From assembly GCA_027068915.1 (NCBI GenBank), contig JAMOLT010000010.1, positions 248,001 to 312,000 on the forward strand: DNA of 64,000 nt. The letters are read 5' to 3'. Each line of letters starts with the position of its first letter. The first letter of the stretch is position 1. The notes under the pieces were generated by a model. It ran no database searches. It was not told where the DNA came from and saw only the letters and a program-made list of their open reading frames with translations. The DNA comes from Sedimenticola sp. Lineage in GTDB: Bacteria; Pseudomonadota; Gammaproteobacteria; Chromatiales; Chromatiaceae. Both the position numbers and the translations under genes were made by a program. This document shows positions 24,972 to 48,414 of this stretch, piece by piece.

Positions 24972-24975
24972 AGTA

Positions 24976-26069: not shown

Positions 26070-28763
26070 TTACACTACATTACGCGGCGCAAAAGACATG
26101 TGCGTAAACTCATGCTTGTACTTGGATTCCCCGATCTTCTTGACTCGGGAAACCCCCATCTTGAAGTTGTAGTTTCCGCTGATCTGGTCAGGCACCCGGC
26201 CTTGCAGGACGTTGGAAGGCTGGCTGGTATTAAGGAAGTAGGAATACATGGTTCCCTTCTTCACATGAGGCGTGACAATAGCTACTGCTTCCACAGCGGC
26301 CTTGTTCAGCTCGATCCAGCCATTCTTCAGCAACTCAGCAAAGTTGAAGTCTGACCCATGCACACCCTTGATGGTCTGGCGGAAAACCGGCACACGATCG
26401 GTATACAGCAGGATCTTGTCTCCGGATTCGATACCCCGTGCGGCGGCATCATCAGGATGAATCTCCGTCCAGTTTTCCGGCCAGCGCTGGGCGATGTAGG
26501 CGCGACGATCCACATCATCAAAACCGGACTGCCAGATTTCATTGATGCGGCCGTTGGTATGCCACAGTTCGTCCTTCTTCGGGCTCATCCACTCCCAGTA
26601 ATCGGAGAACAGGCTCCAGGGATGCTTCTGGATGTTGACCTTGCCGGTTTGGGAATTGAAATGGGTCATTTTCTTGTTGACCATATTCGCACCCTGGGTG
26701 CGGCCTTGTGCTTCCATCATTTCCGGTGTCATCTCGGTATCGTGCAAACGCACACTACCCATCAATTCACCAGTCTTGTAGTTGTAGAAAGTCGGCCCCT
26801 GGATGCCTTCAGTACCCATCTCGCGTAGCTTCTCATGCAGGGTCTTGCCCTCCTTGTGAGCCGCCACCTTGATCATGTGATAGGCCTTGCGGTTGCCACG
26901 GCTGAAGCGCGAAGACTCTTCGCAGACTTCATTGGAGTTTTTCCAGTCATAGCCATCGAAGCCCATGCGCTGCGCTATCTGGGAGACGATCCACCAGTCC
27001 GGCTTGGCATCACCCGGAGCATCATAGAACTTGGAATACAGGCGGATGCGGCGCTCGCCGTTGGCCCGTACAAAGTCCTCCTCACCCCAGGTTGCTGCCG
27101 GCAGCACGATGTCGGCAAACTTCGAACCAATGGGATCACGCAGGTAGATATCCTGGTTGAGCACCACTGTGCCGCCAGAATCCATACGCTTCTTCAGCGT
27201 GTCGATAATGGCCTGCTTGTTGGAAGAACGAACCTGATTGGGGTTATTGGTAACCAGTTCCTCAAACTTGTTGTTCAACCCCTGGGCTCCGCACATGGCC
27301 TGAATCCAGGTAGTGCCGACCACATGGGCAAAGCGGGTGAGACCGGAGTAGAAGTAACGGTCACAATCCATAGCCTGACGACGGCGACCGGGACGCTTCT
27401 GTGGGGACTTGTTGCGAGGAAGACCGGCACCGCCGGTACCGCCACGCTGGTGCCCGCCGAAACGACCAACCACCTGACCCGGACGTCCACCTGCACCACA
27501 AATAGTAGCCAGTGAACTCACCGCATTGGTATTACCGGTATTATTGCTCCAGTAGAAGCCTTTCTCGATGGCCAGAGAGGTTTTGGGACGGCTGCCGTCC
27601 GCCTTGGGTTTGGCCATCCACTCTGCAGCCTGATAGATCTGCTCAACAGGAATGTTGGCGATCCTGGCAGCTTCTTTGGGATCATATTCCTTCTGGGCGA
27701 GGTTCCATTTCTTGTAGTCGTCAACACCCTTGGTCTGGAACTTGCCCCAAGTGGTACGCCACTGCCAGGGAGTGTTACGAGTGCCCTGACCGAAACCGGA
27801 ACTGGACTCCCATTTGTTGTTGACCCATTTTTTGATCCAGTCAGAGTCTTCCCAGCCATTTTCGAGGATGACCCGGGCGATAGCACCCAGGACGGGGACA
27901 TCCGTACCGGGATCAACCTGGATGAACAGGGCATTTCCCCTGCTCTTGGCATAGGCCAGACCGGCAGTTTCCCGCACATTCAGCCAGATGGTTTTCTGCC
28001 CCTGATCAATGGCCGGTTTGATGAACTGGTTGAAGATCATGGTCTTGGTTTCATACGGGTCGGTTCCGCAGATCATCAACACTTCCGCATCACCCCAGTC
28101 CCGGTACGACGGACCAAAGTTGTCAAAACCCGCATCCCGGAATCCGGGCGTCGAGGTAACATCAGCCGGCGTATCATGGAAGGTGAAATTCGCGGTATTG
28201 ATGTCACCCTTGGAAAACTTGCTAAGGGCGTAGGTGTTTTCCACGAACTGGTAGGAGAATGTTTTCATCCCGTAGGCATTGGCACCATGCTCCTTGACCG
28301 TGTGCCTGATCAACTCTGCGGCCACATCCAGGGCGGTATCCCAGGAAACCGGCTGCAAAGTACCATTGATGCGAATCATGGGTGACATGAGGCGATCTCT
28401 GGTGGGTTTCTTGGGGTTATAGCACTTCTCGGCGATGGTGCCGCCACGAATGGAGGAGTCACCACCAATGTTGACCACCTTGGAGTTCTTGTCAGGAACG
28501 ATGACCACCTTGTGTGGCTTGCCGTTATGCATCACCACATTATGCTGTGTAGGCGCCACCCAGGCCTGCATGGGGCCGGCAGGAAAGTCCACACCAAAAG
28601 CATTTTGCGAAGCCTTGGGGCCACCATCTTTTGCACTTGCCGGCCAGCGGTAGACCTTGTAACCGCAGGCGACGATACAATAGTCACAGCAGGTTGTCAG
28701 AACTTCCGCATTCTTGGGAGGCAATGGGGTTTTATCTTCTGGAACATAATCGAGTATAGACAT
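26070..28763 (-). CDS. idrA: Iodate reductase-like molybdopterin catalytic subunit (AioA/IdrA family)
   Basis: 897 residues, no signal peptide. The N-terminal Fe-S motif TTCCDYCIVACGYKVYRWP gives C26-x2-C29-x3-C33, with a Ser region (GGDSSIRGG) where a fourth Cys would sit, implying a [3Fe-4S] cluster as in AioA. Mo-bis-MGD-binding blocks include MICGTDPYETKTM and FADIVLPAATWGEEDFVRANGERR. By eye the AioA arsenite-pocket His block (RIHNRP...ECHATRE) is replaced here by FTFHDTPADVTSTPGFRD, while GRFGGHQRG is kept; this favours iodate over arsenite. The partners (Rieske plus two di-heme peroxidases) are those of the published idrABP1P2 cluster. Export would ride on the Tat signal of IdrB. A GGAGG ribosome site precedes the ATG. 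Confidence 0.8.
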   Translation of the reverse strand: MSILDYVPEDKTPLPPKNAEVLTTCCDYCIVACGYKVYRWPASAKDGGPKASQNAFGVDFPAGPMQAWVAPTQHNVVMHNGKPHKVVIVPDKNSKVVNIGGDSSIRGGTIAEKCYNPKKPTRDRLMSPMIRINGTLQPVSWDTALDVAAELIRHTVKEHGANAYGMKTFSYQFVENTYALSKFSKGDINTANFTFHDTPADVTSTPGFRDAGFDNFGPSYRDWGDAEVLMICGTDPYETKTMIFNQFIKPAIDQGQKTIWLNVRETAGLAYAKSRGNALFIQVDPGTDVPVLGAIARVILENGWEDSDWIKKWVNNKWESSSGFGQGTRNTPWQWRTTWGKFQTKGVDDYKKWNLAQKEYDPKEAARIANIPVEQIYQAAEWMAKPKADGSRPKTSLAIEKGFYWSNNTGNTNAVSSLATICGAGGRPGQVVGRFGGHQRGGTGGAGLPRNKSPQKRPGRRRQAMDCDRYFYSGLTRFAHVVGTTWIQAMCGAQGLNNKFEELVTNNPNQVRSSNKQAIIDTLKKRMDSGGTVVLNQDIYLRDPIGSKFADIVLPAATWGEEDFVRANGERRIRLYSKFYDAPGDAKPDWWIVSQIAQRMGFDGYDWKNSNEVCEESSRFSRGNRKAYHMIKVAAHKEGKTLHEKLREMGTEGIQGPTFYNYKTGELMGSVRLHDTEMTPEMMEAQGRTQGANMVNKKMTHFNSQTGKVNIQKHPWSLFSDYWEWMSPKKDELWHTNGRINEIWQSGFDDVDRRAYIAQRWPENWTEIHPDDAAARGIESGDKILLYTDRVPVFRQTIKGVHGSDFNFAELLKNGWIELNKAAVEAVAIVTPHVKKGTMYSYFLNTSQPSNVLQGRVPDQISGNYNFKMGVSRVKKIGESKYKHEFTHMSFAPRNVV

Positions 28764-28777
28764 CTTATATATCCTCC

Positions 28778-29353
28778 CTAGGCATCCATCAGGTTTTCGT
28801 TACGGCCGAACAACAGCCCCATAATGCCAACGGCGTATATATCATCGCCATCGACCTCCAGCAATACCTGAGGGATACTCTGGTAAGCCTGCCCGGACAC
28901 GATAATCCCGTGGCGGGTCAAATCATAGGTGGACAGGTGCAGGGGACATTGCCCCAGCACGCGGTGCTCGCCCACGGCCTGATACTTGCCATTCATCGGA
29001 CCACCTTGGTGCGTGCAAAGGTAGCTAAAAGCCACCACATCACGCTGGGAACCAACACCACCACCCGCTTTGGCGCCGTCCATCTTTACGACGAAGCACT
29101 GGGAATTGGGGCCGTCATCAGGATAGTTGAAATCCACAGGCTGGTTATCTTTTAACTCACTCAGGCGAGCGACCTTCATGCGTGGATAAGTTACCACCCG
29201 CGCCTTGGCCTGGGCCTCACCCGGGAAAAGGCTGATAGATATGGTGCTGGCAGCTACAGCCGTAGTACCTGAGTACATCAGGAATTGCCGGCGATTCAAC
29301 ATGCATCGGCCATGATCAGCCGCTGTTTCATCTTTTTTCTTTGTATCGCTCAT
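28778..29353 (-). CDS. idrB: Rieske [2Fe-2S] subunit of the iodate reductase-like enzyme
   Basis: 191 residues with a twin-arginine signal: NRRQFLMYSGTTAVAASTI after a charged leader. The Rieske ligands are CTH (LCTHQGGPM) and CPLH (GQCPLHLSTYD). This is the small subunit of AioBA/IdrAB-type enzymes. It takes electrons from cytochrome c and passes them to the Mo subunit's Fe-S cluster, and it carries the signal-less large subunit through Tat. Its ATG overlaps the preceding stop by one base (TAATG), and idrA begins 14 bp downstream. Confidence 0.85.
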   Translation of the reverse strand: MSDTKKKDETAADHGRCMLNRRQFLMYSGTTAVAASTISISLFPGEAQAKARVVTYPRMKVARLSELKDNQPVDFNYPDDGPNSQCFVVKMDGAKAGGGVGSQRDVVAFSYLCTHQGGPMNGKYQAVGEHRVLGQCPLHLSTYDLTRHGIIVSGQAYQSIPQVLLEVDGDDIYAVGIMGLLFGRNENLMDA

Positions 29354-30579
29354 TATTTTTCCTCCTGTGCAGCTTCCAGTTCAGCCCTGGTGAACAGAGG
29401 TGCATATTCCGGCATTGCCGGCTTCTCCATCAACATTTCCTCACCAGAGAAGGCCTCCAGGAACGCTACCAGATTCTCTTTCTCTTCATCAGTCAAACCA
29501 AGGGGCTTGATCAATTTGGATTTGTTTTCGGGAAAGGCAGTGGTACGACCATCTTCATCGAAGCCGCCGCGGTTGTAGAAGTCCACCACTTCTTCCATGG
29601 TGTAGAAGACCCCGTTATGCATATAGGGCGCAGTGAATGTCGTATAGCGCAACGATGGAGTACGGAACTTGCCTTTGTCCCATTTGTTTTTACCACGGAA
29701 ATAGAAACCAGGATCGGCCTTGGTGGTTCGATACCCTTCTTCGGTCATTCCTTTGGCATAAAGCTCAAAGCGGAAGGTAACCTGAGCCAAACCATCTTCT
29801 TCCCAGCGCGTGTTGGGCGGCACACCGATGTTGTAGTAATCCTGGTCAGATGCCAATTCACCATTGTGGCACTGGATACAGCCAGCCTTGCCGTTGAATA
29901 ACGCCATACCCTGCACCTGTTGTTCGGTCAGGGCGCTCTTGTCGCCCAACAGGTATTTGTCCAAGGGGGTGTCACGCTGCACCAGGGTGCGTTCAAATGC
30001 TGCGATAGCTTTCCAGGCATGGCCGATAATCGGCCATTCGGTGCCAAACACCTCCTTGAAACGCTTACGGTATTCGGGAATCAGCGCCAGGCGGGATTCC
30101 ATGATGTCGTTTTCACCATTACCGGCTACACCACCTTTGGCGGCGGAAGGAGCCTGTTTCTCCAGCGAAGGCACAGAACCTGCCCAGAAATTACGCGCAT
30201 AATAAGCGCTGTTGATGATGGTCTGGCTATTGCGCCAGTGAACCGTACCGGGGTAGCCGCGGGAAAAATCTTCCGCCCAGGCCCAGCCCTGGTCAGGCTC
30301 ATGGCAGGTGGAACAGCCGGTAGAGGCATCACCGCCAAGACGGGGATCAAAAAACAATATCTTGCCCAGTTCGATCTTGGCTGGCGTCTGCTTGTTGTCC
30401 GGCGGAATCGGCGGCGCACCCAGGGGGGCCAGTGGCGGCGGACCGGATTGTGCGGTCTTGGCAGCCATGGATTTTCCGGATGCAGCGCTTCCCGTTTTGG
30501 TCTCCTGCGCCTGACAGGCTGTCAGAACAGTCGCAACGGCAACCGCAACGAGGGTAGGAGCGATCTTCTTTATACTCAT
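29353..30579 (-). CDS. idrP1: Di-heme cytochrome c peroxidase family protein (IdrP-like)
   Basis: 408 residues: a lipoprotein-like signal (VATVLTAC lipobox, Cys about residue 22), a Pro/Ala linker, then MauG/CCP domains with two haem sites CSTCH (about residue 89) and CIQCH (about 235), and family blocks LGKILFFDPRLGGD, FRTPSLRYTTFTAPYMHNG and FYNRGG. In iodate reducers the two IdrP proteins are proposed to remove hydrogen peroxide or reactive intermediates formed at IdrA. I assign the P1 name by adjacency to idrB only. Confidence 0.8.
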   Translation of the reverse strand: MSIKKIAPTLVAVAVATVLTACQAQETKTGSAASGKSMAAKTAQSGPPPLAPLGAPPIPPDNKQTPAKIELGKILFFDPRLGGDASTGCSTCHEPDQGWAWAEDFSRGYPGTVHWRNSQTIINSAYYARNFWAGSVPSLEKQAPSAAKGGVAGNGENDIMESRLALIPEYRKRFKEVFGTEWPIIGHAWKAIAAFERTLVQRDTPLDKYLLGDKSALTEQQVQGMALFNGKAGCIQCHNGELASDQDYYNIGVPPNTRWEEDGLAQVTFRFELYAKGMTEEGYRTTKADPGFYFRGKNKWDKGKFRTPSLRYTTFTAPYMHNGVFYTMEEVVDFYNRGGFDEDGRTTAFPENKSKLIKPLGLTDEEKENLVAFLEAFSGEEMLMEKPAMPEYAPLFTRAELEAAQEEK

Positions 30580-30593
30580 GACATTCTCCTCGA

Positions 30594-31700
30594 TTAGTTA
30601 CGGACCTGCGTCCAATTTTCGATTACAGGATACTCAGCCGGATAGGGCTGATCCCATACGTATTTGGGACTGGTCAGCGGATCACCGGAAAGAGACTCTA
30701 GAAACGCCACCAGATCTTTCTGTTCATTGGCGCTCAGACCAAGAGACTTGAGTTTCTTGCTCTTGTTGCTGTCCTTCCCTCCACCATTGTTGTAGAACTC
30801 GACCACTTCGGACAGCGTCTTGATCACGCCATTGTGCATGTACGGAGCACTGTACTTGAGTTCCCGCAGGGATGGGGTGATGAACTTGCCCATATCCTGC
30901 TTCTCCAGGGTCACATTGAAGTATCCCGGGTCTCGCTTCAGGTTTCTGTAGTCCGGCACACCCTGGAACATGGTAAAGGCCATGAATGCCTGGTGATTCA
31001 TCGGGTCCAGGAATACATCGAAATTCTCCGGAACACCAGTGTTGTGGGGCTTCAGGTCGCTCAGCAAGGGGCCATTGTGGCACTGAATACAGCCGGCCTT
31101 GCCCTTGAACAATTTCATGCCACGTTTTGCAGAAGCAGACATTGCGCCCTTGTCGAACGGGGAGCCGGTAGAAGTGAGGGTTTTCAGATATTCGGGAATC
31201 GCCTTGCGCACAGAGCCATTGGAAGGTTCACCGTAGCCAGCGTCCTTGAACATCTTGACGTACAGAGGATCCTGCTTCAAGCGTTCCTGCATGATACGCA
31301 TATCCATGTTCATGATGTAATCTTCCGTGATCATCTCACGGGTCATGTCATTCAGGTTGGTGCCGATGCGGCCATCCCAATTCCAGATGTTTTTGTGGGC
31401 CGTATTCACCAGGGAAGAGGCGTTACGAAAATGCCCGTTTCCAGGGTAACCCGGAGACAGCGCCTCCTTGCTGCCATACGCCTTTTCAGGCACATGGCAT
31501 TCAGCGCAGGAAATAGCTGCGTCACCCGACAGGCGATTATCAAAGAACAGGCGTTTGCCCAACTCGGCTTTCGCCTTGTCGATTTTTAACTGCGGTAAGG
31601 GTCCGATATCCGGATAGCTGGCAGCTTGCGCTGTTACTGCCATTCCGACCCCCAGTGTGGCGGCCAGCAAAGCACGCCCCGTTGAGACTCTTACAACCAT
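30594..31700 (-). CDS. idrP2: Di-heme cytochrome c peroxidase family protein (IdrP-like), first gene of operon
   Basis: 368 residues with a cleavable Sec signal (ALLAATLGVGMAVTAQA). Haem motifs are CAECH (about residue 65) and CIQCH (about 205), with LGKRLFFDNRLSGD, FITPSLRELKYSAPYMHNG and FYNNGGG, the same architecture as its downstream paralogue. Soluble periplasmic protein, in contrast to the lipobox-bearing partner. It is the promoter-proximal gene, with a FNR-like site about 170 bp upstream. The order peroxidase-peroxidase-Rieske-Mo subunit puts the catalytic gene last. Confidence 0.8.
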   Translation of the reverse strand: MVVRVSTGRALLAATLGVGMAVTAQAASYPDIGPLPQLKIDKAKAELGKRLFFDNRLSGDAAISCAECHVPEKAYGSKEALSPGYPGNGHFRNASSLVNTAHKNIWNWDGRIGTNLNDMTREMITEDYIMNMDMRIMQERLKQDPLYVKMFKDAGYGEPSNGSVRKAIPEYLKTLTSTGSPFDKGAMSASAKRGMKLFKGKAGCIQCHNGPLLSDLKPHNTGVPENFDVFLDPMNHQAFMAFTMFQGVPDYRNLKRDPGYFNVTLEKQDMGKFITPSLRELKYSAPYMHNGVIKTLSEVVEFYNNGGGKDSNKSKKLKSLGLSANEQKDLVAFLESLSGDPLTSPKYVWDQPYPAEYPVIENWTQVRN

Positions 31701-32291
31701 TGGATTTCCTCCAGGTCTATTATTAATTTGCCGACATTAAAGGGCTTGGTTGCAGCAACCAAAACCCAAAAACAGCCGACAGCCTGGCTAATTCCATGCA
31801 CGAAACAGACCAGTTTCAGAAAGTCCCATCAAAGCCTGTCAAAACCACGCTTTAGGCCGATCTTGTTGAGCCAAATCAAATGCCCATAGGTTTTGTGTTG
31901 AATAAATCGTTCTATCAGCGGAAGACAAGGCACCAATTTATTCAGAAAAAACGGTTACCTGGATTATTTATGCCGCCTGGAAAACAGGAGAATTTTGTAA
32001 TGGAAGATATAAAATAAATTATCCGTTATATCAAATAGTTACTACTGCCAACTTCACCTGTATACCTCGTGCCAAAGAAAAAAATACCTGACAAGCAAAG
32101 CACTGTGATGGCGAAACAGGCACGGAAACAGCTCAGCCAAAATCAGCGATTGATTGTGGATACAGAGTGCAAGATGTTGATTCGGATGGCTACGACTGCA
32201 GGGATGCAGGAGATAGCGCGGCGCAGGAAGACAAAGACCAGACAGATCAACAGCTTGCGCTCTGCGCCTCCATCAATCGTGGGTCTTGGGA
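31701..32291. other. Long intergenic region upstream of idr
   Basis: About 590 bp between the idr promoter side and the MITE. It is AT-rich in the middle (31930-32040) and holds the FNR-like dyad near 31870. A short rightward frame at about 32069-32314 shows no family similarity and runs into the MITE. A second rightward frame (DVDSDGYDCRDAGD) ends exactly at the CTAG at 32292. I count neither as a gene, but remnants of a deleted gene are possible. Confidence 0.5.
31866..31879 (-). promoter_or_regulatory. FNR/ANR-like site upstream of the idr operon
   Basis: On the minus strand it reads TTGAT-TTGG-CTCAA, nine of ten consensus positions of the FNR/ANR box TTGAT-N4-ATCAA. Its centre lies about 172 bp before the first idr start codon. 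This would fit anaerobic induction of an iodate-respiration operon. Inference from motif and position only. Confidence 0.5.
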
Positions 32292-32456
32292 CTAGTGTAC
32301 TGCGTCGGAATTAAAGACCCTTTCAGTGAGTCACAAAAGCGCCAGGACGGTGTTGGGACACTTGCCAAGGGAACAACCATTGCCTGCGCGCCCCGCCTTA
32401 TCCTGGCGCTTTTGGGGGGCTCTGAAAGATCCTTTAATTCCGACGCAGTACACTAG
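32292..32456. mobile_element. 165-bp MITE with CTAG ends (IS630-like)
   Basis: The outermost 25 bp of the two ends are perfect inverted repeats (left begins CTAGTGTACTGCGTCGG, right ends CCGACGCAGTACACTAG). Similarity continues through CTTTCAG/CTGAAAG, and an inner pair CAAAAGCGCCAGGA/TCCTGGCGCTTTTG brings the whole element close to one long hairpin. Each end is CTAG, the known target of IS630-type transposases that duplicate the central TA. No transposase is encoded. The right CTAG is also the TAG stop of the sco gene. Confidence 0.75.
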
Positions 32457-33049
32457 TTTCCATCCATCACATAACGAATGGCCTCGCTGATCACCGTCGG
32501 CGATGTACCGTGCGGAAAAATAAAGCGCAGCTCCCCGTTCGGTGCAATCAGGTAGGTGGCGGCAGAATGATTAACCGCATAGCCAAAAGCCGAGTCTTCC
32601 AGCCCTACCTCATAGTACTGGGCGCCATACAGCGCAGCAGCATCAGAAAGCTCTTTTTCACTGCCGGTTACACCAATGAAGTTGGGATGAAAGTATTCCA
32701 CATATTCATCCAGCAGCTCAAAGGTATCTCTTTTGGGGTCAACACTGACAAAAACACCAACGACCTTTTTCAGCTCTTCATCATTGAGCTCATTGAACGC
32801 CTGTGCCAAATAGGAAAGAGAGGTCGGGCAGACATCCGGGCATTTGGTGTAGCCGAAATACAGCAACACCACCTTGCCCCGATAGTCCTTCAGGGCAAAA
32901 GGCCCCTTGCTGGTATGCAGGATAAAGTCGCCCCCAGGGGGCGCCTCGGTAATTCCAGGTACTTCCGCATCCTCCCCTGGCTGGCTATCAGCCAGCAACA
33001 AGGGCATCCACAGCAGCCAGAAAACCAGCAATACGGTTTTGCGCATCAT
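32453..33049 (-). CDS. SCO1/SenC-type copper chaperone
   Basis: 198 residues with signal MMRKTVLLVFWLLWMPLLLA. The thioredoxin-fold copper site is GYTKCPDVCPTSL (CxxxC) plus the distal His in AVNHSAATYLI, the full Cu ligand set. It delivers copper to, or reduces, Cys of respiratory oxidase copper centres. It is the last gene of the leftward oxidase operon, 17 bp after the tri-heme cytochrome, hinting that the oxidase has copper. Starts at 33049 or 33046. The stop codon TAG lies in the MITE end. Confidence 0.88.
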   Translation of the reverse strand: MMRKTVLLVFWLLWMPLLLADSQPGEDAEVPGITEAPPGGDFILHTSKGPFALKDYRGKVVLLYFGYTKCPDVCPTSLSYLAQAFNELNDEELKKVVGVFVSVDPKRDTFELLDEYVEYFHPNFIGVTGSEKELSDAAALYGAQYYEVGLEDSAFGYAVNHSAATYLIAPNGELRFIFPHGTSPTVISEAIRYVMDGN

Positions 33050-33065
33050 GAGCTTCTCGATGTAG

Positions 33066-35480
33066 CTATGCTTGTTCCTTACGCTGTGATCGCACCAGCA
33101 GCAATCCGGCAAGAAACACCAGAAATCCAATACCAGCCGGCACCCCATACACTTTCAGTGCATTCGTTTCCGGCGGCAGTATCAGCCAGTACCAGGTAGT
33201 CAGGGTATGTCTGCCTCCGGCCTCCCCGTTACTGCCGTCCCAGTTGGCAAAGGATACAGGAATAAACTGTCCTTCATCGAACAATACATCACCATTTGCG
33301 GCATATCTGGGGCGTTTCATCAGCACCTGCCAACGCCCGCCCTTCCACTCACCGGTGGCGCTGAGGCTGGCGTCTTTCTCCCGGGGTTTGAGTTTTTTGT
33401 CCGGGCCGGTGCCATCCAGCAGCATGGCCACGGGCTCTCTTTTCGGTTCCAGACTGCCCGCATTCCAGTACCAAATGGTGGTTTTATGCTTGGCATCACC
33501 ATGGCGGTACAGCGGCTTCCTTACCATGGGTGCAGACGTGTAGGCATCTTCATGGGGAAACTGTATGGCGAATGCATCCGGATGCATTTCCAGATTCTCG
33601 TCCTGCAATTCAGTAAAATATTTATCTCCCGGCACACTCATGGTGCGATCATCCACCTCCAGCAGGAAGGCGATTTCCTCATCGTTATACAACACCCGCA
33701 CAGTAACTGCATCGTTTAGCGGGGTAAACAAACGATCCTCCTTGATCACGTTGGGAACCAGATGCAGGGTTACCGGCGGCGCCTCAGACCATCGCTCATC
33801 ATCTACAGTTGATGGCAGATCGGCCTCCAGTTTCTTGCTGCTGACAACAGGAGCATCCTGGGGCTGAACTGCAGTTTCCCGCAGGCTGTACACGAAGTTG
33901 GAGATATGCCAGCGGTCTTCCAGGCTCACCGGATCCGGGTTGCCTTTTTCCAGGGCACGGTGCGCGGGCATGGGCGTACCGGGGATGCCGATGGACAGAC
34001 GGGAATAGATTGCCTTGATGGTTTCATCCCGCTCCTTGTCGGTGGCGGCCAGTGATTGGGTAGCGCGCCAGGTCCAGGGCTTGGTCAGATCCCGTGGCCA
34101 GATACGGTTACCCCAGTCATCTTCCAGTTTTTTCCCGGACTGGATATTGCCCCGGCCATCATCACCATGGCACTCAGAACAGGATTTGCGGAACGCCAGC
34201 TTGCCTTTTTCCACCGATTCCCCGGAATAGGCGATCTGGCCTGTTATTGGCTCAATCTCGGTAATCACCCGAAAATCCGTTTTGGTATAAAAGCCGTCAT
34301 CGTCGAAGGCTTCCTCATCCGCCTCTTCCGGTGGCCAGGACTGGGTGATGTCAAATCCCTTGATTACCGGAATCAGGCTACGGATCTGCTCATCGGTGAG
34401 CAGGGCGCGCCCCTTGATTCCCCAGCCAGGCATGGCCGTACCTGGCAGCCCGATTTTTATGGTGGCAAACAAGTCCTCATCACGCGGCAGTTGCGTACCA
34501 GGAGAACTCTTGTATTTGAACATGGCCAGGCTGAAATCCCGGGGCTTCGGATACATCAGATCCGCCGCCACACCATCACCAGCGCCAACCTCGCCATGGC
34601 AGACCTCGCAGCGGAATTTGTACAGATCCCTGCCCGTCATGTTCTTGCGTCGCGCCAGCACTTCATCTTTCATGCCGGTTACGGTTCTGGAAATTTCGGG
34701 ATCCCAGATGCGCGGCACCTGTCCGTTGTAATCAAAGATAAAATTGATCACATTCCAGACATCGTTCTCTTCCAGCATTTCATGCCATACGGGCATGGCG
34801 GAATTCCAGGGCGTACCTTCCACCGGCAGCCCCGGACCGCCAGTAACAATGCGCCAGAACAGGAAAGATTCCTGCAATTGCGGGATGATGGTAGGGTCCT
34901 GGAAATTGATCGGCTGGGGACTGAAACCGTGGGCATATTGTCCCTTGCCATCCAGCAGGTCACCGTGGCAATAGAAACAGTTCTTGTAGTAGACATCCCG
35001 TCCTGCGGCTACTGATTCCTGGTATTTGCTCCAGCCCGCCTCCTTGTCCTTTACCAGGGTATCCAGAATATCATGGCGTACCGGGTTCTCCAGTGTCGCC
35101 AGATCAAAGGTCTTGTTGTATGCCTTGACTGCGGAGGGTGGCGCGGGATGCACCTGGCGCAGTTCCACCGGCGCTTCAAGTGACGGCTTGACCGCACCAT
35201 AGATCACATAGGCCACCAGCAAGGGAATGGCTATGAGAAAGAACCCACGCAGCAACGCCCTGTCATCATTCTGCAGGGTGGCCAGTATGGGAGCCTTGAA
35301 TTCGGACCATTTCTTGTCATCAAAGGCAAAGTACAAAAGGATGCCGATAATGGTGATGATCATGTACTGGATCATCAGGGTCTTTGGCAGCACCGGAGGG
35401 AAGGCGTTATCGAAAATCAGCCAGGCCAGTACAGCGGCAATCAAAGCTTGCCAGAATGCAGTAATCCGGAAACCTTTCAT
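33066..35480 (-). CDS. Membrane tri-heme cytochrome c with ethylbenzene-dehydrogenase-type haem domain
   Basis: 804 residues. Three N-terminal hydrophobic segments (residues about 8-25, 35-52 and 80-98) anchor it. Then come three cytochrome c modules with haem motifs CFYCH (about 170), CEVCH (about 285) and CSECH (about 430), each followed by a plausible Met ligand such as TAMPGWG or TPMPAHR. The C-terminal third (about 550-760) resembles the DMSO-reductase-type gamma-subunit/ethylbenzene dehydrogenase haem-b domain (VRVLYNDEEIAFLLEVDD, FAIQFP, TTIWYWNAG). A final membrane helix follows. It overlaps the di-heme cytochrome gene by 4 bp (ATGA). Likely electron entry or exit subunit of the oxidase complex. 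Confidence 0.85.
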   Translation of the reverse strand: MKGFRITAFWQALIAAVLAWLIFDNAFPPVLPKTLMIQYMIITIIGILLYFAFDDKKWSEFKAPILATLQNDDRALLRGFFLIAIPLLVAYVIYGAVKPSLEAPVELRQVHPAPPSAVKAYNKTFDLATLENPVRHDILDTLVKDKEAGWSKYQESVAAGRDVYYKNCFYCHGDLLDGKGQYAHGFSPQPINFQDPTIIPQLQESFLFWRIVTGGPGLPVEGTPWNSAMPVWHEMLEENDVWNVINFIFDYNGQVPRIWDPEISRTVTGMKDEVLARRKNMTGRDLYKFRCEVCHGEVGAGDGVAADLMYPKPRDFSLAMFKYKSSPGTQLPRDEDLFATIKIGLPGTAMPGWGIKGRALLTDEQIRSLIPVIKGFDITQSWPPEEADEEAFDDDGFYTKTDFRVITEIEPITGQIAYSGESVEKGKLAFRKSCSECHGDDGRGNIQSGKKLEDDWGNRIWPRDLTKPWTWRATQSLAATDKERDETIKAIYSRLSIGIPGTPMPAHRALEKGNPDPVSLEDRWHISNFVYSLRETAVQPQDAPVVSSKKLEADLPSTVDDERWSEAPPVTLHLVPNVIKEDRLFTPLNDAVTVRVLYNDEEIAFLLEVDDRTMSVPGDKYFTELQDENLEMHPDAFAIQFPHEDAYTSAPMVRKPLYRHGDAKHKTTIWYWNAGSLEPKREPVAMLLDGTGPDKKLKPREKDASLSATGEWKGGRWQVLMKRPRYAANGDVLFDEGQFIPVSFANWDGSNGEAGGRHTLTTWYWLILPPETNALKVYGVPAGIGFLVFLAGLLLVRSQRKEQA

Positions 35481-36310
35481 CCTTTCTTCTCCGCCAGATA
35501 GTTCACGATCATCTCCAGCTCACTCACCGTCATCTTGGATGCAAAATCAGGCGGCATGGCAGGCGGGAAGCCCTCAGCCACCACCGCATTCGGGTCAACA
35601 ATGCTTTGCCGCAGCTCTTCCTTGCTCAGGCGGGAACCGATATCCACCAGCCCCGGGCCGACCAGGACGTCATTACTGTCCATTGCATGGCAGGAAGTAC
35701 AGGCGTATTTGGCAAGCGCCTCTTCCGCGGTTGTCGCCGGAGCAGGAGCTTTGCCGCTGTCATCGGCAGTTGCTGCCGAAGCCACTTCCGCCGCCGCTTC
35801 CGCTGTGGGCAGGGCCACGGTAACCTCACCACCATCCTTTGCCTCCAGCCAGGCGATCACGGCATCAATCTCTATTGGTGTAAGCTGTATGGGGGGCTTG
35901 TCCACCATAGGCATTGGGGACTCGGTATCATTGCTGCCTTTTTTCCCCCAACCGGCGACAACATATTTGCCGGGATGAAGCAGAGACTCCCGGATATATT
36001 CCTCGGCATTCTTCGCATCTCCCTGGTAGCGTTCATCCGCCAGATGCTTGTTGGCAAGCGCCACCATGTCTTCTCCCCCAATATCCGGCGCTCGTCCCAA
36101 GGGTGCGGGCTGGTGACACAGGGTACAGGTACCCTTGTTGTGGAAGATCTCGTCCCCCAAGGCGATGAAGCTTTCCATGGTCAGGGAACCCAGATCCACC
36201 GCCTTTTCTACCGGAGCCTCACCCTTTACCTGGGGAAGCAGGTAGGTTACCAAGGTAAAGAGCAGGGTCAGTCCCAGGCTGAAGCCCAACGTCTTGAAAA
36301 GTACACTCAC
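35477..36310 (-). CDS. Membrane-anchored di-heme cytochrome c
   Basis: 277 residues with an N-terminal membrane anchor (FSLGLTLLFTLVTYLL). The first c domain has CTLCH (about residue 62) and a Met loop SPMPMVDK. An Ala/Glu-rich linker (about 155-205) follows, and the second c domain has CTSCH (about 208) with PAMPPDFASKMT. This resembles CcoP-like or bc-type electron-donor cytochromes. It overlaps genes on both sides by 4 bp, so it is stoichiometrically tied to the CydA-like and tri-heme subunits. Confidence 0.85.
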   Translation of the reverse strand: MSVLFKTLGFSLGLTLLFTLVTYLLPQVKGEAPVEKAVDLGSLTMESFIALGDEIFHNKGTCTLCHQPAPLGRAPDIGGEDMVALANKHLADERYQGDAKNAEEYIRESLLHPGKYVVAGWGKKGSNDTESPMPMVDKPPIQLTPIEIDAVIAWLEAKDGGEVTVALPTAEAAAEVASAATADDSGKAPAPATTAEEALAKYACTSCHAMDSNDVLVGPGLVDIGSRLSKEELRQSIVDPNAVVAEGFPPAMPPDFASKMTVSELEMIVNYLAEKKG

Positions 36311-38381: not shown

Positions 38382-38534
38382 CTAGCCGTGGCTGGCTGTT
38401 ACGCCGCCGGAATAGATCAGCAGCCAGTAGAAAAAAACCAGTAGCGCAATCAAGGTGCCAAAAAAAAGCTTTTTTCCCCAATTGTTTTGCTCCCCTGATG
38501 GCGGGGATTTCACTTCCTCTGGTAACTCGGCCAT
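38382..38534 (-). CDS. Small single-span membrane protein, first gene of oxidase operon, 50 aa
   Basis: 50 residues starting MAELPEEVKSPPSGEQNNWG with one C-terminal helix (LFFGTLIALLVFFYWLLIYSGG). AGGAG lies 8 bp before the ATG at 38534. An ATG at 38555 would add seven residues (MSVRRFS). The sigma-54 promoter candidate at 38593-38608 would start transcription about 50 bp upstream. It is separated by 13 bp from the second small membrane gene. Probably an accessory subunit of the CydA-like complex. Confidence 0.7.
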   Translation of the reverse strand: MAELPEEVKSPPSGEQNNWGKKLFFGTLIALLVFFYWLLIYSGGVTASHG

Positions 38535-38592: not shown

Positions 38593-38608
38593 AGCAAAAA
38601 CCAAGCCA
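38593..38608 (-). promoter_or_regulatory. Sigma-54 promoter candidate for the oxidase operon
   Basis: The minus strand reads TGGCTTGGTTTTTGCT, matching TGGCAC-N5-TTGCW with GG and GC separated by exactly 10 bp. Its predicted transcription start falls near 38580, a few tens of bp before the first small gene. Motif match by eye. Confidence 0.65.
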
Positions 38609-38993: not shown

Positions 38994-41390
38994 ATGACAA
39001 CATACAGAGAAACCGTGGACACCTTGTGCCAGCTTGTTCAAACTGGTGATGAAGCAGATCGCTGCTATGCAGCCCGCACCCTGGGTCTGCTGGGAGATAC
39101 GGCATCCATTGAAACCCTGATTGAACACCTCAGGGATGAGGATCTGGACGTTGCCATCGATGCCGCAGAGGCATTGGGAAATATTGGCTCGCCAAAAGCG
39201 GTGCCAGCATTGGTCGAATCCCTGGAGAACGACCCCAGTGGTGAGGTGTGCACCATGGTGACTGTTGCACTCGGCAAGATCGGGGACACCGATACCATCG
39301 ACCCCCTGTTGAAAATCTGCCTGGAGCGCCCGGAAAACATGGAATGGAACGATGACTGGGACACCTGGTGGGATGTGCAGAAGGCCGCTGTTCACGCACT
39401 GGGAACGCTACAGGCGGAAAAGGCGGTTGATCGTCTGGCTGCTCTCATTGGTGATGAAACCCAGCAGGACATGGAACCCGATATTCTCAATACCCTGATC
39501 CGGATATCCAGCAAGGGCGAAGCCCGGGTCATTGAGCGGCTGCAAAACCAGGACAGCACCTCCATTCACCGGCGCAGGGCAGCCCATGCGTTGGCGCGCT
39601 CACCCTCCAGCAATGCAACCAGGGCCTTGGGGCGTGCGCTGACGGATCCCGCCGCCGACGTGCGTGCAGAAGCGGCCTTGTCCCTTTCCGCACAAAACGC
39701 TATTTCCTACCTCAGTGCCCTGACCCTGCTGTTGCGCGACCCTGACAACCAAGTACGCCAGGCATCGCTCAAGGCCGTTACCCGACTGGCGCAGAACAGC
39801 GACAATGCACCGGACATCGAAGAAGCATTCCAGGACATGCTGGCTGACCCCGACCCTGAAGTGCGTGCCATTCTGTACTCCATGCTGTTGCCCGTTGTTG
39901 CCGACAACCCACTGTCGGAAGAAAATTTTCAGGTAGTGCTCAATCACATCTGCGATGCCGCTGCCGAAACGGCTGCTGCTGCCTGCGCCCTCCTCGGGGC
40001 CAACGGGGACATATCCGCCATCGCACACCTGCTGGAGATAGTAGCCGACAGCAGCGCCCATCCCATGGTGCGAAAAGAGGCTGCCACAGCCATTGGTAGC
40101 CTGGGGCAGATCGATGCACAAGTACTCGGCACGCTGGAAAAGGCCATTACGGATGAACAGCAGGTGGTGCGCCTGGCAGCCCTGGCAGCCTTGATGGAGC
40201 TGGAAAAGACCGGCCTGATTGTACAGCCGGATGATGAAGAGACACCACTATCCCGGCCCCTGGATCTGATCATGGGTGCATTGAACGGAGAAATCACCGT
40301 TCCGGAACCGCCGACCGCCACCGCCCCCGTGGAAGTGACCCTGGACACCAGCGTCGAAGGCGGGGAAGATTTGCACAATAACGAGGAAAACCTGCCAGAA
40401 GCATCAAAACCAGCAGAAGCTGACCTCGATCTACCGGAAACACCTGCCCAAATCGTCACCGAAGGCGAAGTTGCGCCCGCCATGTCCACCCTGGATGCGA
40501 TCAGCATGGCAAATGTGGAAACCATGCTTGCCACGCCGCGTCCGGTAGAGGATATCCAGGACGAAGCCACCTCGGAATACATGAAAATCGTTGAAGACAA
40601 CAAGGAGCTTATGCGGCGCATGCGCTCTAACCGCAAAATCGACGCGCAGCAGGATATACGCCGGCTGGCGGCGCATGTGCTTGCAGATATCGACGAGGCA
40701 GAGGTACTGCAAACCCTGATCCAGGCGCTCAATGACGATGCCGCCCCAGTACGCCGGGAAGCAGCAGAGTCCATCGGCATCATGGCGCAGCGCAACCCGC
40801 TGCTTGCCGACCTGTCCGACGCCGTCGGCACCCTGATCACCCAACTGGCCATTGGCGATCTGGATCAGAAAATTGCCAGCGCCAGAGCACTGAGCCATAT
40901 CGGCAACCGAGCAGCTCTGGTTCCATTGGTGGAAACACTGAAAGCCCCGGAATTCACCCTGCGCATCCAGGCTATTGATGCCCTGGTACATCTATCTCTC
41001 AACAGCCAGGATCCGCTCAAGGCGGATCACATGGTTGTACGCGATGTCCCAGCCCTGAGCATTGCCCGCAGACTCATGGAATGCCTGGAAGACAGTGAAA
41101 TGGGCGTGCGCGTCACTTCAGCCAAAGGGCTGGCGAGGCTGCTGAAGCCTTTGCAGGAGGAATCATTTACCCGCAAAGCAGTCGAAAAGATTATCGATGG
41201 CGTTACCATGGGCACCGGAGAAGAAGCAAGGCTGATTGGCCGTGCGCTACGCCAGTTCGATACCGACCTTGCCAACAGCATATTGCTGGCAAACCTCAAG
41301 CAGGCTGACGACAGCGTCAAACGCAGCGTATATATTGAAATGATAGAAGAATTGCTGACTGCACAGGACAATCCTGAACAGGCAGCCTGA
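38994..41390 (+). CDS. Large HEAT-repeat protein
   Basis: 798 residues made almost wholly of HEAT/PBS-lyase-type repeats (for example CYAARTLGLLGDTASIETLIEHL, AIDAAEALGNIGSPKAVPALVESL, VRRAAAHALARS-like units and a second block after residue 560). The block at about residues 405-530 between the two arrays is acidic and probably disordered. No signal peptide, so it is cytoplasmic. HEAT scaffolds of this kind can bind partner proteins or tetrapyrroles (PBS-lyase relatives attach bilins). First gene behind the plus-strand sigma-54 promoter and 24 bp before the cupredoxin-like gene. Confidence 0.85.
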   Translation: MTTYRETVDTLCQLVQTGDEADRCYAARTLGLLGDTASIETLIEHLRDEDLDVAIDAAEALGNIGSPKAVPALVESLENDPSGEVCTMVTVALGKIGDTDTIDPLLKICLERPENMEWNDDWDTWWDVQKAAVHALGTLQAEKAVDRLAALIGDETQQDMEPDILNTLIRISSKGEARVIERLQNQDSTSIHRRRAAHALARSPSSNATRALGRALTDPAADVRAEAALSLSAQNAISYLSALTLLLRDPDNQVRQASLKAVTRLAQNSDNAPDIEEAFQDMLADPDPEVRAILYSMLLPVVADNPLSEENFQVVLNHICDAAAETAAAACALLGANGDISAIAHLLEIVADSSAHPMVRKEAATAIGSLGQIDAQVLGTLEKAITDEQQVVRLAALAALMELEKTGLIVQPDDEETPLSRPLDLIMGALNGEITVPEPPTATAPVEVTLDTSVEGGEDLHNNEENLPEASKPAEADLDLPETPAQIVTEGEVAPAMSTLDAISMANVETMLATPRPVEDIQDEATSEYMKIVEDNKELMRRMRSNRKIDAQQDIRRLAAHVLADIDEAEVLQTLIQALNDDAAPVRREAAESIGIMAQRNPLLADLSDAVGTLITQLAIGDLDQKIASARALSHIGNRAALVPLVETLKAPEFTLRIQAIDALVHLSLNSQDPLKADHMVVRDVPALSIARRLMECLEDSEMGVRVTSAKGLARLLKPLQEESFTRKAVEKIIDGVTMGTGEEARLIGRALRQFDTDLANSILLANLKQADDSVKRSVYIEMIEELLTAQDNPEQAA

Positions 41391-41413: not shown

Positions 41414-42154
41414 ATGAAAAAAGCACTCGTTACCCTCAGCATTGCCGGTCTTTGCGCCTTGCCCCTGGCGAGTCAGGCAGCCTACAAGGAGACCAGCGTT
41501 TCCAACGGCGGAACCATTACCGGTAGCGTGAAATTTGCAGGCAAGGATCGCCCACCAAAGACATACACCATTTCCAAGGACAACGACGTATGTGGCACCG
41601 GAGTGCGCGAGATCGACTTTGTACGGGTGGAAAACGGCCATCTGATGGATACCGTGGTGTATCTGGAGAAGGTCAAGGAAGGCAAGCTCTTCCCTGCTGA
41701 TGTAGGCGACGCCACCATTGACCAGAAGGGCTGCGAGTTCAAACCCTTTCTCCAGGTGATGAAAAACAAGGCGGTTCTTTCTGCCGTAAACGATGATCCC
41801 ATCCTGCATAATATTCACACCTATGAACTGATACGTGGTGACGCCAAGGGGCCGAAAAAAACCCTGACCAATGTCAGTCAGCCCAAACCAGGCGTAGTGA
41901 AATCCACGATCAAGGTCAAGAAGGGACCCGCCATGAAAGTGGAATGCGATGCCCACGACTTCATGCACGGATTTGTCTTCATTGCCAAAAATCCGTACTT
42001 TGCCAAAGTTGCGGATGATGGCAGCTTCACCATCAAAGATGTTCCCCCGGGAAAATACACCATCAAAGCCTGGCATGGCATGCTGAAGAACCAGAAAGCC
42101 AAAGTGACCGTGGATGCCAGCGGCACTGCTACCGTTGACTTCACTTTCAAGTAA
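41414..42154 (+). CDS. Exported cupredoxin/carboxypeptidase-regulatory-like protein
   Basis: 246 residues with signal peptide MKKALVTLSIAGLCALPLASQA. A cupredoxin-type C-terminus is visible: MKVECDAHDFMHGFVFIAKNPYFAKV, with Cys, two His and Met as possible copper ligands, then GSFTIKDVPPGKYTIKAWHG, the regulatory-like beta domain. An upstream His lies in ILHNIHTYEL. This architecture occurs in periplasmic proteins near cytochromes and methanol/methylamine systems. A copper-handling or electron-transfer role beside a Sco-equipped oxidase is plausible. AGGAGA precedes the ATG. Confidence 0.8.
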   Translation: MKKALVTLSIAGLCALPLASQAAYKETSVSNGGTITGSVKFAGKDRPPKTYTISKDNDVCGTGVREIDFVRVENGHLMDTVVYLEKVKEGKLFPADVGDATIDQKGCEFKPFLQVMKNKAVLSAVNDDPILHNIHTYELIRGDAKGPKKTLTNVSQPKPGVVKSTIKVKKGPAMKVECDAHDFMHGFVFIAKNPYFAKVADDGSFTIKDVPPGKYTIKAWHGMLKNQKAKVTVDASGTATVDFTFK

Positions 42155-42429: not shown

Positions 42430-44661
42430 ATGAATGCACGAGCACAAGACAAAACCGAACCAACGCCTGCACTGCCCGGCTACTCGTCCATCCTGCTGGC
42501 TGTGGATTCCTCAGATCATGCCAATCGGGGAACCCTGGAGGCCATTGCCCTGGCGGGGCATTGCCAGGCGCAGCTTACAGCGGCTCATGTATACGCCGCA
42601 AAGCTCCATGATGCACGGTTTCGGCAAATGGAAGGCGGGCTCCCGGAACAGTTTCGTGAGGAGCAGGAACTGGAGCGCCAGCGCGATGTGCATGATGATC
42701 TGATCACCCGGGGACTGTCGATTATTACCGACTCCTATCTGGACCAGGTGGAAACCGCCGCTGGAGAGAAGCTGCAGGTGCAACGCCGCTCCCTGGAAGG
42801 AAAAAACTACCGCGAACTGGTGAATGAAGCCAACAGCGGCAACTACGATTTGCTGATCATGGGAGCCCTTGGCCTTGGCGCTGTCAAGGGCAGCCGTCTG
42901 GGCACGGTCTGTCAGCGGGTATCGCGGCGCAGCAACATCGACACCCTGATCATCAAAGACCCCGTCCGCCAACTCGGTGACGGACCAATCGTAGTAGGCG
43001 TAGATGGTTCTGCAAAATCCTACGGCGGCCTGCTCACCGCCCTGAATCTGGCGAAAACCTGGGGCGCAGAAATAAAGGTGGTATCCGCATTCGACCCCTA
43101 TTATCACTATGTCGCTTTCAACCGCATTGCCGGGGTATTATCGGAAGAAGCGGGCAAGGTATTCAAATTTCAGGAGCAGGAAAAGCTCCACGAGGAAATC
43201 ATCGACTCCGGCCTGGCAAAGATCTACCAGGGACACCTGTCCGTGGTGCAGTCCATCGCCACAGACTACGGCATGGAAGTGGAAACCATACTGCTGGACG
43301 GCAAGCCCCACGAAGTCATCAACCGCTACCTGCACGAGATCAAACCTTCCCTACTGGTACTGGGAACCACCGGCATCCACGCCGACCCGGAACTGGACAT
43401 TGGCGGAAACACCGAGTATCTGCTTAACGATGCTCCCTGCGCTGTACTGCTCAGCCAGCGTAAGCACCAGCCCCAGGTGGACAGGCTGGCATCCGTGAGC
43501 ACATCCTGGACCCACGAAGCGGAAACCCGCATGGAACGGGTGCCCTCATTCGTGCGCAGCATGGCGCGCATGGCCATCCTGCGCTACGCCCAGGAAAAAG
43601 GCCATACCGTCATCACCGAGAGTATCGTCGAAGAAGCCACCGCCCAACTCATGCCCGGCCACGCAGAGCAGGCCATGGGAGAAATCGTCGAAGCCTATGA
43701 TCGTGGCGACCTCAAGCGCAAGCCCGAAGCACACAGCATCATGCGCTGGAGCGAAGCAGCCACCGCGCTACTGCTCACCATCAAGGATCTCAGCCTGCGC
43801 GGCAACCTGAGCATGCGGGCAGAAAAGAAAGCCCGCAGCACAGGCAGTCAGGTCGTGGAGGCCACACACATACAGGCCTTTCTTGACGAGAACGTCCCTG
43901 TTGCCCGCTTTCAGCCGGGAACAGAAGCAGCCGCCCTTCCTGGCAATCAAGACACCGTAGATCTCCAGGCCAACGCAATACAAGCCTCCCTGCAATGGCA
44001 GGCCGCAGCCCTTGCCCGGCTAATGCGCGTACCCGAGGGTTTTATGCGCGACAGCTCCCGGCAGCGTATCGAAAACTACGCAAAAAATCAGGGGCTGACA
44101 GAAATCAGCCTGACAACCGCTGAAGCAGGCCTGGCCGAAGCACGCGAAACCATGGAGGAGCAAATGACTGCCACCTCAGCCACCCAAGAACCCGTCCCGG
44201 ACAGCAATAGTCGCTGCCCCTTCGCCGCAGCCGGAAGAACCGATACGCCGGGCCAGGAATCCAGCTCCACTGCAAAAGTACAATGGGAAAGGGAGGCAGA
44301 AGCCCTGCTGAACAACGTGCCACCAGGGTTCTGTCGCGACATGACCCGCAAGGCGGCTCAGGGAATCGCCGCCCGGAACGACATGAGCATCATCAAACCC
44401 GCATTCGTACAGCAGGTATTGCAAACTTTTCAATCCGGTTCAGAGCAACACAGGGAAACCATGCCCTGGGAAACAGCCGCCAGGGAACGCATCGACAAAG
44501 CGCCGGATATGGTGCGCGGCATGCTGATCAAGGAAATCGAAGACTGGAGCCAACGCAACGGCCTGCAAAGAGTAACCGAAGAGTCGGTAAATGCCGTGAA
44601 GGCCATCTGGATGGAACGCGGCGTTTTTCACCTCAACCCTGATGACTCCCGCAATGGATAA
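42430..44661 (+). CDS. Tandem universal-stress protein fused to five PCP_red-like repeats
   Basis: 743 residues. Two UspA domains span about 18-180 (ILLAVDSSDHANRG; LLIMGALGLGAVKGSRLGTVCQRVSRRS) and 185-345 (IVVGVDGSAKSYGG; LVLGTTGIHADPEL), both with partial ATP-loop features. After them come five repeats, each opening with Trp, near residues 360 (WTHEAETRMERVPSFVR), 439, 522 (WQAAALARLMRVPEGF), 618 (WEREAEALLNNVPPGF) and 679 (WETAARERIDKAPDMVR). These match the proto-chlorophyllide-reductase (PCP_red, BchB/ChlB C-terminal) module. Such modules touch tetrapyrroles in the dark protochlorophyllide reductase, so a porphyrin-binding or scaffold role is inferred. The stop overlaps the radical SAM gene. 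Confidence 0.8.
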   Translation: MNARAQDKTEPTPALPGYSSILLAVDSSDHANRGTLEAIALAGHCQAQLTAAHVYAAKLHDARFRQMEGGLPEQFREEQELERQRDVHDDLITRGLSIITDSYLDQVETAAGEKLQVQRRSLEGKNYRELVNEANSGNYDLLIMGALGLGAVKGSRLGTVCQRVSRRSNIDTLIIKDPVRQLGDGPIVVGVDGSAKSYGGLLTALNLAKTWGAEIKVVSAFDPYYHYVAFNRIAGVLSEEAGKVFKFQEQEKLHEEIIDSGLAKIYQGHLSVVQSIATDYGMEVETILLDGKPHEVINRYLHEIKPSLLVLGTTGIHADPELDIGGNTEYLLNDAPCAVLLSQRKHQPQVDRLASVSTSWTHEAETRMERVPSFVRSMARMAILRYAQEKGHTVITESIVEEATAQLMPGHAEQAMGEIVEAYDRGDLKRKPEAHSIMRWSEAATALLLTIKDLSLRGNLSMRAEKKARSTGSQVVEATHIQAFLDENVPVARFQPGTEAAALPGNQDTVDLQANAIQASLQWQAAALARLMRVPEGFMRDSSRQRIENYAKNQGLTEISLTTAEAGLAEARETMEEQMTATSATQEPVPDSNSRCPFAAAGRTDTPGQESSSTAKVQWEREAEALLNNVPPGFCRDMTRKAAQGIAARNDMSIIKPAFVQQVLQTFQSGSEQHRETMPWETAARERIDKAPDMVRGMLIKEIEDWSQRNGLQRVTEESVNAVKAIWMERGVFHLNPDDSRNG

Positions 44662-46669: not shown

Positions 46670-46672
46670 CGG

Positions 46673-48078: not shown

Positions 48079-48414
48079 ATGTCGGAAAATGCCCCTCAAA
48101 ACCAGGAACAATACAGTGGCTTCCGCCCAATCAGGCTAATACTGGTAATTCTGGGGCTGCTGATCGGCATTTCCTTTGCCGCCCAGTGGTATAGCCGCAA
48201 TATCACCATGCCACGCTACTGTGAATACCCTGCTGAAGAAACCCTGGGTCGCATACAGCAAGTTTTGACCGAAAAGACACCAGCCGGAAGCGGGGATCGC
48301 AAGCCCTATATCATCGCCGCCCGCCTAACCTTCCTGCTTCCCCGCAAACCCGACGAACCACTAAACAGTTACCTGAGTCGGCTACAGCGGCACATTGAAC
48401 AACAATGCCCATAG
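48079..48414 (+). CDS. Small membrane-anchored protein of unknown function
   Basis: 111 residues: a cytoplasmic N-terminus of about 20, one membrane helix (LILVILGLLIGISFAAQW), then a periplasmic domain of about 70 residues with two Cys (PRYCEYP and the C-terminal QQCP) that could pair. The ATG at 48079 lies just past the HemY stop. The final bases overlap the sensor-kinase start. Unrecognised family. Position between hemY and the sensor suggests an input or assembly partner. Confidence 0.7.
   Translation: MSENAPQNQEQYSGFRPIRLILVILGLLIGISFAAQWYSRNITMPRYCEYPAEETLGRIQQVLTEKTPAGSGDRKPYIIAARLTFLLPRKPDEPLNSYLSRLQRHIEQQCP

Follow-up and report, generated by a model that had tools for sequence, protein, structure and literature searches.

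We analyzed a 64-kb stretch of DNA from the marine, sulfur-oxidizer-type bacterium Sedimenticola sp. (64,000 nucleotides of contig C10 of a 2.83-Mb genome that is 99.99% complete; herein referred to as the window) and find that it carries an idr operon, idrP2-idrP1-idrB-idrA, that is a new member of the described iodate reductase family. We favor, with moderate confidence, a reading in which the product of this operon is most likely a periplasmic iodate reducer and a conserved electron-transfer module upstream of it, beyond the interval considered in the original prediction, probably supplies electrons from quinol.

Four intact open reading frames (ORFs) occupy positions 26070-31700 on the minus strand, and Pfam and NCBIfam profiles identify two of them as di-heme peroxidases, one as a Rieske protein and the fourth as a molybdopterin subunit that contains a Rieske-3 [3Fe-4S] domain. 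ORFs, motifs and spacing thereby bear out the leftward operon of two di-heme peroxidases, a Rieske subunit with a twin-arginine translocation (Tat) signal and an AioA-family molybdenum (Mo) subunit that had been described from the sequence. The intergenic gaps measure 0-14 bp and a GGAGG-like ribosome site precedes each of the four genes, so that one transcript is expected. The layout is not due to chance: the P2-P1-B-A order is complete and on a single strand in 67 of 80 related loci, which together with the window coordinates agrees with the claim that the peroxidase genes come first and the catalytic gene last, and in the other 13 loci it is truncated at a contig end, interrupted by a split ORF or part of a second cluster. 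Loci were sampled by tblastn and pattern scans (80 named loci, nine further genomes of the class, four of the phylum, and plasmid loci); the 80 are best matches and are biased toward close relatives. Relatives of the idr locus reach 96-100% identity, and the nearest IdrA sequences belong to metagenome-assembled genomes (MAGs) labeled Sedimenticola sp. (95-96% identity) and to an unclassified gammaproteobacterium (96% over 821 residues).

Gene content, gene order, export signals and position in the tree agree with the proposed equivalence with idrABP1P2. In Denitromonas IR-12 and Pseudomonas SCT, that gene set is either needed for iodate respiration or associated with it (PMC8692401). The peroxidase gene pair always lies ahead of idrAB (PMC8801600), and the P2-P1-B-A order has been called characteristic of iodate reductases (PMC10989891). 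As of 2022, every strain with confirmed iodate-linked growth was said to belong to one small clade, made up of ten genomes (PMC8801600). The window shares with the clusters of Pseudomonas sp. SCT, Denitromonas sp. IR-12, Azoarcus sp. DN11 and Aromatoleum TC-10 the four genes in the same order, a Tat signal on IdrB only, di-heme peroxidases, the [3Fe-4S] motif and a nearby sigma-54 two-component system, which in DN11 lies upstream of idr (PMC10149662). It differs from them in its Rieske spacer (20 rather than 18 residues, X18 being the spacing reported for DN11; PMC10149662), in an operon that contains neither moaA nor c551, in the cytochrome bd-like module upstream, and in an identity of ~48% to the subclade of Azonexus, in whose locus the cytochrome and moaA genes reported for SCT occur. 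Closer counterparts are found in a Sedimenticola thiotaurini MAG (HyVt-443, L042), in Thiodiazotropha and in tubeworm symbionts, in which IdrA is 75-86% identical and the idr order and upstream module are alike, whereas the species and some downstream neighboring genes differ; a genome of S. thiotaurini had previously been listed as that of a putative iodate reducer (PMC8692401).

The placement of the large subunit was examined in a tree of 60 proteins (quick LG+G4 inference with Shimodaira-Hasegawa-like approximate likelihood ratio test [SH-aLRT] support), in which the 897-residue protein falls in a single Idr clade (SH-aLRT 100) apart from AioA; members of this clade carry the P2-P1-B-A synteny. 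There are two main subclades, one comprising Azonexus (in whose locus a c-type cytochrome gene and moaA adjoin idrA), Thiothrix and genomes G125, G291 and G495, and the other comprising the window protein together with Thiodiazotropha, tubeworm symbionts, Thiomargarita, Vibrio and some Alphaproteobacteria. The [3Fe-4S] motif is kept, as had been noted (C26-X2-C29-X3-C33-X70-S104), and no signal peptide is seen on reading the N-terminus. The predicted IdrA structure is closest to AioA (Z 42.9, root-mean-square deviation 2.1-2.2 over 782 residues), followed by NapA (Z 37.7).

The original prediction favored iodate over arsenite on the grounds that the His block of the AioA arsenite pocket was lost, and in this respect the residue argument was inaccurate. 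The AioA pocket is formed by His, Glu, Arg and His at positions 195, 203, 419 and 423 in Alcaligenes faecalis numbering. In an alignment of 49 Idr and seven AioA proteins guided by NT-26 AioA, the corresponding window residues are H196, S204, R434 and H438: both His and the Arg equal the AioA residues and are retained in 49/49 Idr, and the Glu alone, present in 7/7 AioA, is replaced in every Idr (Ser in 42, Asp in five, Ala in two). Three further positions are invariant yet group-specific (Y171, D197 and Y404 in Idr; H, N and I in AioA). The preference over arsenite nonetheless stands, by virtue of the tree, which excludes placement within AioA. An arsenite oxidase (AioBA) accompanied by peroxidases is a reading to which we attach very little probability, although it would account for the retained His/Arg/His, for AioA being the nearest solved fold and for the scores of TIGR02693 and TIGR02694, both above cut-off; the NCBIfam assignment of the large subunit to arsenite oxidase (391.9 against a cut-off of 359) speaks against our own assignment. 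Placement outside AioA, loss of the invariant pocket Glu and a longer Rieske loop led us to reject arsenite oxidase identity, and the presence of peroxidases and the lack of an aioX-like gene among the window genes in the scans run point the same way. In short, the window enzyme resembles AioAB in fold, cofactors and pocket His/Arg/His but departs from it in the pocket Glu, the Rieske loop, its separate clade and the extra peroxidases. Of the five Mo-domain proteins encoded by the genome (NapA, NasA/Fdh-like, NuoG, PhsA-like and IdrA), IdrA is the sole AioA-type enzyme, and none is a type II dimethyl sulfoxide (DMSO) reductase or nitrite oxidoreductase (NXR) partner.

The smaller proteins of the operon follow the same pattern. 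IdrB has an RRQFL Tat motif and Rieske ligands in the arrangement CTH-X20-CPLH, and a Tat motif and the CxH and CxxH ligands recur in 87/87 homologs; the spacer is 20 residues in nearly all of the window's subclade, 18 in Azonexus and 13-15 in AioB. IdrP1 and IdrP2 are 39.7% identical to one another, and two CXXCH motifs are found in each as well as in all 82 and 78 of their respective homologs (in IdrP2 at residues 65 and 204; the 78 IdrP2 homologs are encoded at the equivalent place in their loci). Both peroxidases have Sec-type export signals, as assessed by eye and with a simple lipobox test, which detects an N-terminal LTAC lipobox in IdrP1 and a lipobox in 17 of its 82 homologs; in the window and its close relatives IdrP1 may thus be anchored in the membrane as a lipoprotein, which would set it apart from many other IdrP1.

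Because the subclade that probably holds the tested enzymes is only ~48% identical to the window IdrA, a point against our reading, we infer rather than observe that iodate is the substrate of the window's subclade. For IdrA of Roseovarius azorensis, the exact molecular weight (99.4 kDa) matches the protein of locus L150, which is too weak a basis for placement. It strikes us as unlikely that the main substrate is a different oxyanion, such as bromate, chlorate or nitrite, or that the enzyme works as an electron sink or in detoxification instead of respiration. In favor of this, the window's subclade has no placed tested member, and in aerobic Alphaproteobacteria with idr, iodate is reduced but does not support growth (PMC11445184). 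The module described below also pairs elsewhere with type II oxyanion Mo enzymes. Against this, tested Idr enzymes are iodate-induced and active on iodate, and cofactor and pocket residues are equal in both Idr subclades, save for the replacement of Glu by Ser, Ala or Asp.

If iodate is the substrate, a mechanism can be proposed in which the steps within Idr follow published models and the electron-feeding route is our own inference. IdrA would be exported on the Tat signal of IdrB; quinol would be oxidized at the bd-like protein, and electrons would pass via the di-heme cytochrome and the c-heme/heme-b protein to the [2Fe-2S] cluster of IdrB, the [3Fe-4S] cluster of IdrA and finally the Mo site, where iodate would be reduced to hypoiodous acid. 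IdrP1 and IdrP2 would remove peroxide-type by-products, and hypoiodous acid would disproportionate abiotically, without chlorite dismutase (Cld). No Cld was found in the 99.99% complete genome, which makes the Cld-dependent model inapplicable here. Module and idr would both be regulated by the AtoSC-type sigma-54 regulator.

The central component of the upstream module is a CydA-fold membrane protein of about 14 helices, whose model matches CydA with Z 30-32 and the membrane subunits of alternative complex III with Z 18-22. Across 32 bd-like sequences, residues H106, E193, H272 and M433 do not vary, and the position aligned to Glu99 of Escherichia coli CydA is an invariant Tyr; the alignment to CydA is weak, and these ligand assignments are for that reason tentative. 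A GRQP motif was not found in the 32 sequences, with the same weakness of alignment, and the comparison suggests a loss of Glu445 and the Q-loop, the C-terminal half aligning weakly to E. coli CydA. A comparable protein has been described in Nitrospina, where a 14-helix bd-like oxidase beside NXR conserves heme-b ligands without a Q-loop or quinol-binding residues, is accompanied by a di-heme cytochrome and an alternative NxrC (c hemes plus a heme-b domain) and has been suggested to play an alternative-complex-III-like role (PMC3578206). Compared by description, the window module resembles the NXR-cluster modules of Nitrospina, Nitrospira and Kuenenia (PMC3578206) in protein types, helix number, N-terminal-half heme ligands and its position beside a periplasmic Mo enzyme; it differs in having an AioA-type Idr as partner and in the radical-SAM, PCP_red, protoporphyrinogen oxidase (PPO)-like and HEAT genes that accompany it.

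Of the 49 loci open to testing (those with at least 6 kb of upstream DNA), 27 have the module upstream of and co-directional with idr, and it adjoins idr in the distant clade as well (G125 and G291, in which IdrA is only ~50% identical). In genome G228 the module lies downstream of idrA; the same locus (L138, 7893-19300) holds idrA followed by a HEAT gene and then two different bd-like/cytochrome/EB_dh sets in one genome. Among 274 genomes of the class, 8/10 idr genomes and 4/264 others encode the bd-like protein (p = 3e-11; 5.6e-10 without the window genome), related genomes not being independent in these statistics. Several observations weigh against a dedicated role of the module. In the phylum sample (398 genomes, without the window genome) the bd-like gene occurs in 1/4 idr genomes (p = 0.03), module presence switches at least seven times on a 35-tip tree, and six genomes have a bd-like gene without idr. 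The module is missing from idr clusters of the Vibrio type and of Alphaproteobacteria, and consequently is not essential to idr.

These distributions bear directly on a second explanation, less probable in our estimation but a serious contender, in which the window encodes an ordinary iodate reductase that draws its electrons from bc1 and a general cytochrome c, the route proposed for Denitromonas, whose cluster has no dedicated quinone oxidoreductase (PMC8692401). The bd-like module would then be an independent system, such as a microaerobic oxidase or a means of nitric oxide/O2 detoxification, that has only the regulator and the neighborhood in common with idr. The clusters without a module and the six genomes without idr fit this explanation, as do the promoter-like site that idr has of its own and the miniature inverted-repeat transposable element (MITE)-like sequence between the two units. 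It is less easily reconciled with the strong genome-wide association and repeated adjacency, the distant Idr clade included; the c-heme/heme-b protein looks like the gamma subunit of a Mo enzyme, and the Tyr at the Glu99 position together with the missing GRQP motif argues against an ordinary O2 reductase. On balance we retain the reading of iodate reductase and electron-supplying module, and regard passage of electrons from quinol to Idr through the bd-like module, judged from these sequences, as about equally likely to be right or wrong.

Published models leave the electron route to Idr open, and the conserved module offers a concrete candidate for it. In genomes G014 and G120 (L137, L161), which have the bd-like gene and no idr, the module adjoins a Tat-exported enzyme of the type II DMSO-reductase family. 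We tentatively raise the further idea, itself rather unlikely, that the module is a portable membrane adaptor connecting the quinone pool to various Mo enzymes that act on oxyanions in the periplasm (here Idr, in other genomes type II/NXR-like enzymes), and that it carries a modified heme, the product of the accompanying radical-SAM, PCP_red, PPO-like and HEAT proteins. If so, the adaptor would be the missing dedicated quinol oxidoreductase for iodate respiration in the window's lineage. The conserved module also links the enigmatic bd-like protein of nitrite oxidizers (PMC3578206) with another Mo enzyme, one that is no more than a distant relative of the first. The iodate assignment would also place iodate reduction in many sulfur-oxidizing clam and tubeworm symbionts. 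A literature search found no paper joining iodate reductase with a bd-like protein; the module beside idr seems to be new, and may show undiscussed in neighborhood figures of iodate papers. A plasmid search with the bd-like protein gave no match.

Both the idr and the bd units appear to be under sigma-54 control, a prediction suggested by promoter-like sites and the nearby sigma-54 regulator. A TGG-N9-TGC pattern lies within 200 bp before idrP2 in 46/77 loci (shuffled mean 2.2, maximum 6; reversed pattern 1), and TGGC-N7-TTGC precedes the bd-like gene in 15/28 loci (shuffled mean 0.19). The stricter TGGC-N8-TTGC, with the wrong spacing, gave no match before idrP2; N7 and GG-N10-GC did match. 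The MITE-like element has inverted ends of ~20-25 bp and supplies the stop codon of the SCO gene, and its terminal repeat has ~65 copies in the genome (at most two mismatches; none for the reversed control). Coordinates of all features are collected in table 1.

Table 1. Features of the idr locus and its surroundings in the window
Feature	Coordinates	Strand	Evidence
idrA-like molybdopterin subunit, 897 residues, without signal peptide, last gene of the operon	26070..28763	-	[3Fe-4S] motif C26 C29 C33 S104
idrB-like Tat-exported Rieske subunit, 191 residues	28778..29353	-	RRQFL; CxH-X20-CxxH; Pfam/NCBIfam
idrP1-like di-heme c peroxidase, 408 residues	29353..30579	-	ORF, profile match, CXXCH motifs, homologs
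idrP2-like di-heme c peroxidase, 368 residues, Sec-type signal, first gene of the operon	30594..31700	-	ORF; CCP_MauG 9.2e-34
Putative sigma-54 type -24/-12 site TGGTCTGTTTCGTGC, 112 bp before idrP2 start	31798..31812	-	TGG-N9-TGC pattern
MITE-like palindromic element, 167 bp, between SCO gene and idrP2	32291..32457	.	Terminal-repeat copies in genome
SCO1/SenC protein (longest ORF; true start probably near 33049)	32453..33148	-	PF02630 3.1e-39; same place in 17-18 loci
Membrane-anchored three-CXXCH + EB_dh heme-b protein, alternative-NxrC-like	33066..35480	-	PF09459 2.5e-17, c-heme domains, hydrophobic segments; 28 loci
Di-heme c-type cytochrome	35477..36310	-	Domain match, CXXCH; 23 loci
Cytochrome bd-like (CydA-fold) membrane protein, 634 residues	36307..38211	-	PF01654; AlphaFold predicted local distance difference test 78
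Second putative sigma-54 type site TGGCACCTTGATTGC, full match to scored consensus	38446..38460	-	Pattern match
Putative sigma-54 type site TGGCTTGGTTTTTGC upstream of bd-like gene	38594..38608	-	TGGC-N7-TTGC
HEAT/PBS-HEAT repeat protein; best NCBIfam matches phycobilin lyases CpcE/CpcF	38994..41390	+	Adjoins idr in ~20 loci
246-residue module protein; homolog has carboxypeptidase-regulatory-like domain	41414..42154	+	Homologs by bd or idr: L135, L139-L144, L160
UspA-PCP_red fusion	42430..44661	+	10/10 carrier genomes also have bd-like gene
Radical-SAM (NirJ2/AhbD-like)-PCP_red fusion	44642..46669	+	Profile matches
PPO-like flavoprotein	46673..48076	+	TIGR00562 251.8 bits, cut-off 97.85
PAS histidine kinase, AtoS-like	48405..51008	+	idr neighbor in ~13 loci
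Sigma-54 response regulator, AtoC-like	50980..52389	+	17 loci

Divergent from the module, the UspA-PCP_red, radical SAM-PCP_red and PPO-like genes accompany the bd-like gene (window 42430-48076; homologs in L135-L144 and L158-L161). The UspA-PCP_red genes follow bd and not idr, since all ten carrier genomes are among the twelve with a bd-like gene. Such tetrapyrrole-type genes beside the bd-like gene hint at a modified tetrapyrrole; a literature search on PCP_red with radical SAM, Usp and bd returned nothing relevant. Immediately 3' of idrA lie two ORFs (23757-25749), one with a sub-threshold DUF7262 match, whose conservation does not extend beyond the closest Sedimenticola MAGs (L048, L061). 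Gammaproteobacterial-type IdrA also occurs in MAGs of Candidatus Polarisedimenticolaceae (Acidobacteriota; L049, L072), reflecting either transfer or a binning error. Sedimenticola hydrogenitrophicus SB48 carries two idr clusters ~7 kb apart (L046, 7054-22690), and SN1189 likewise has two (L045, L047).

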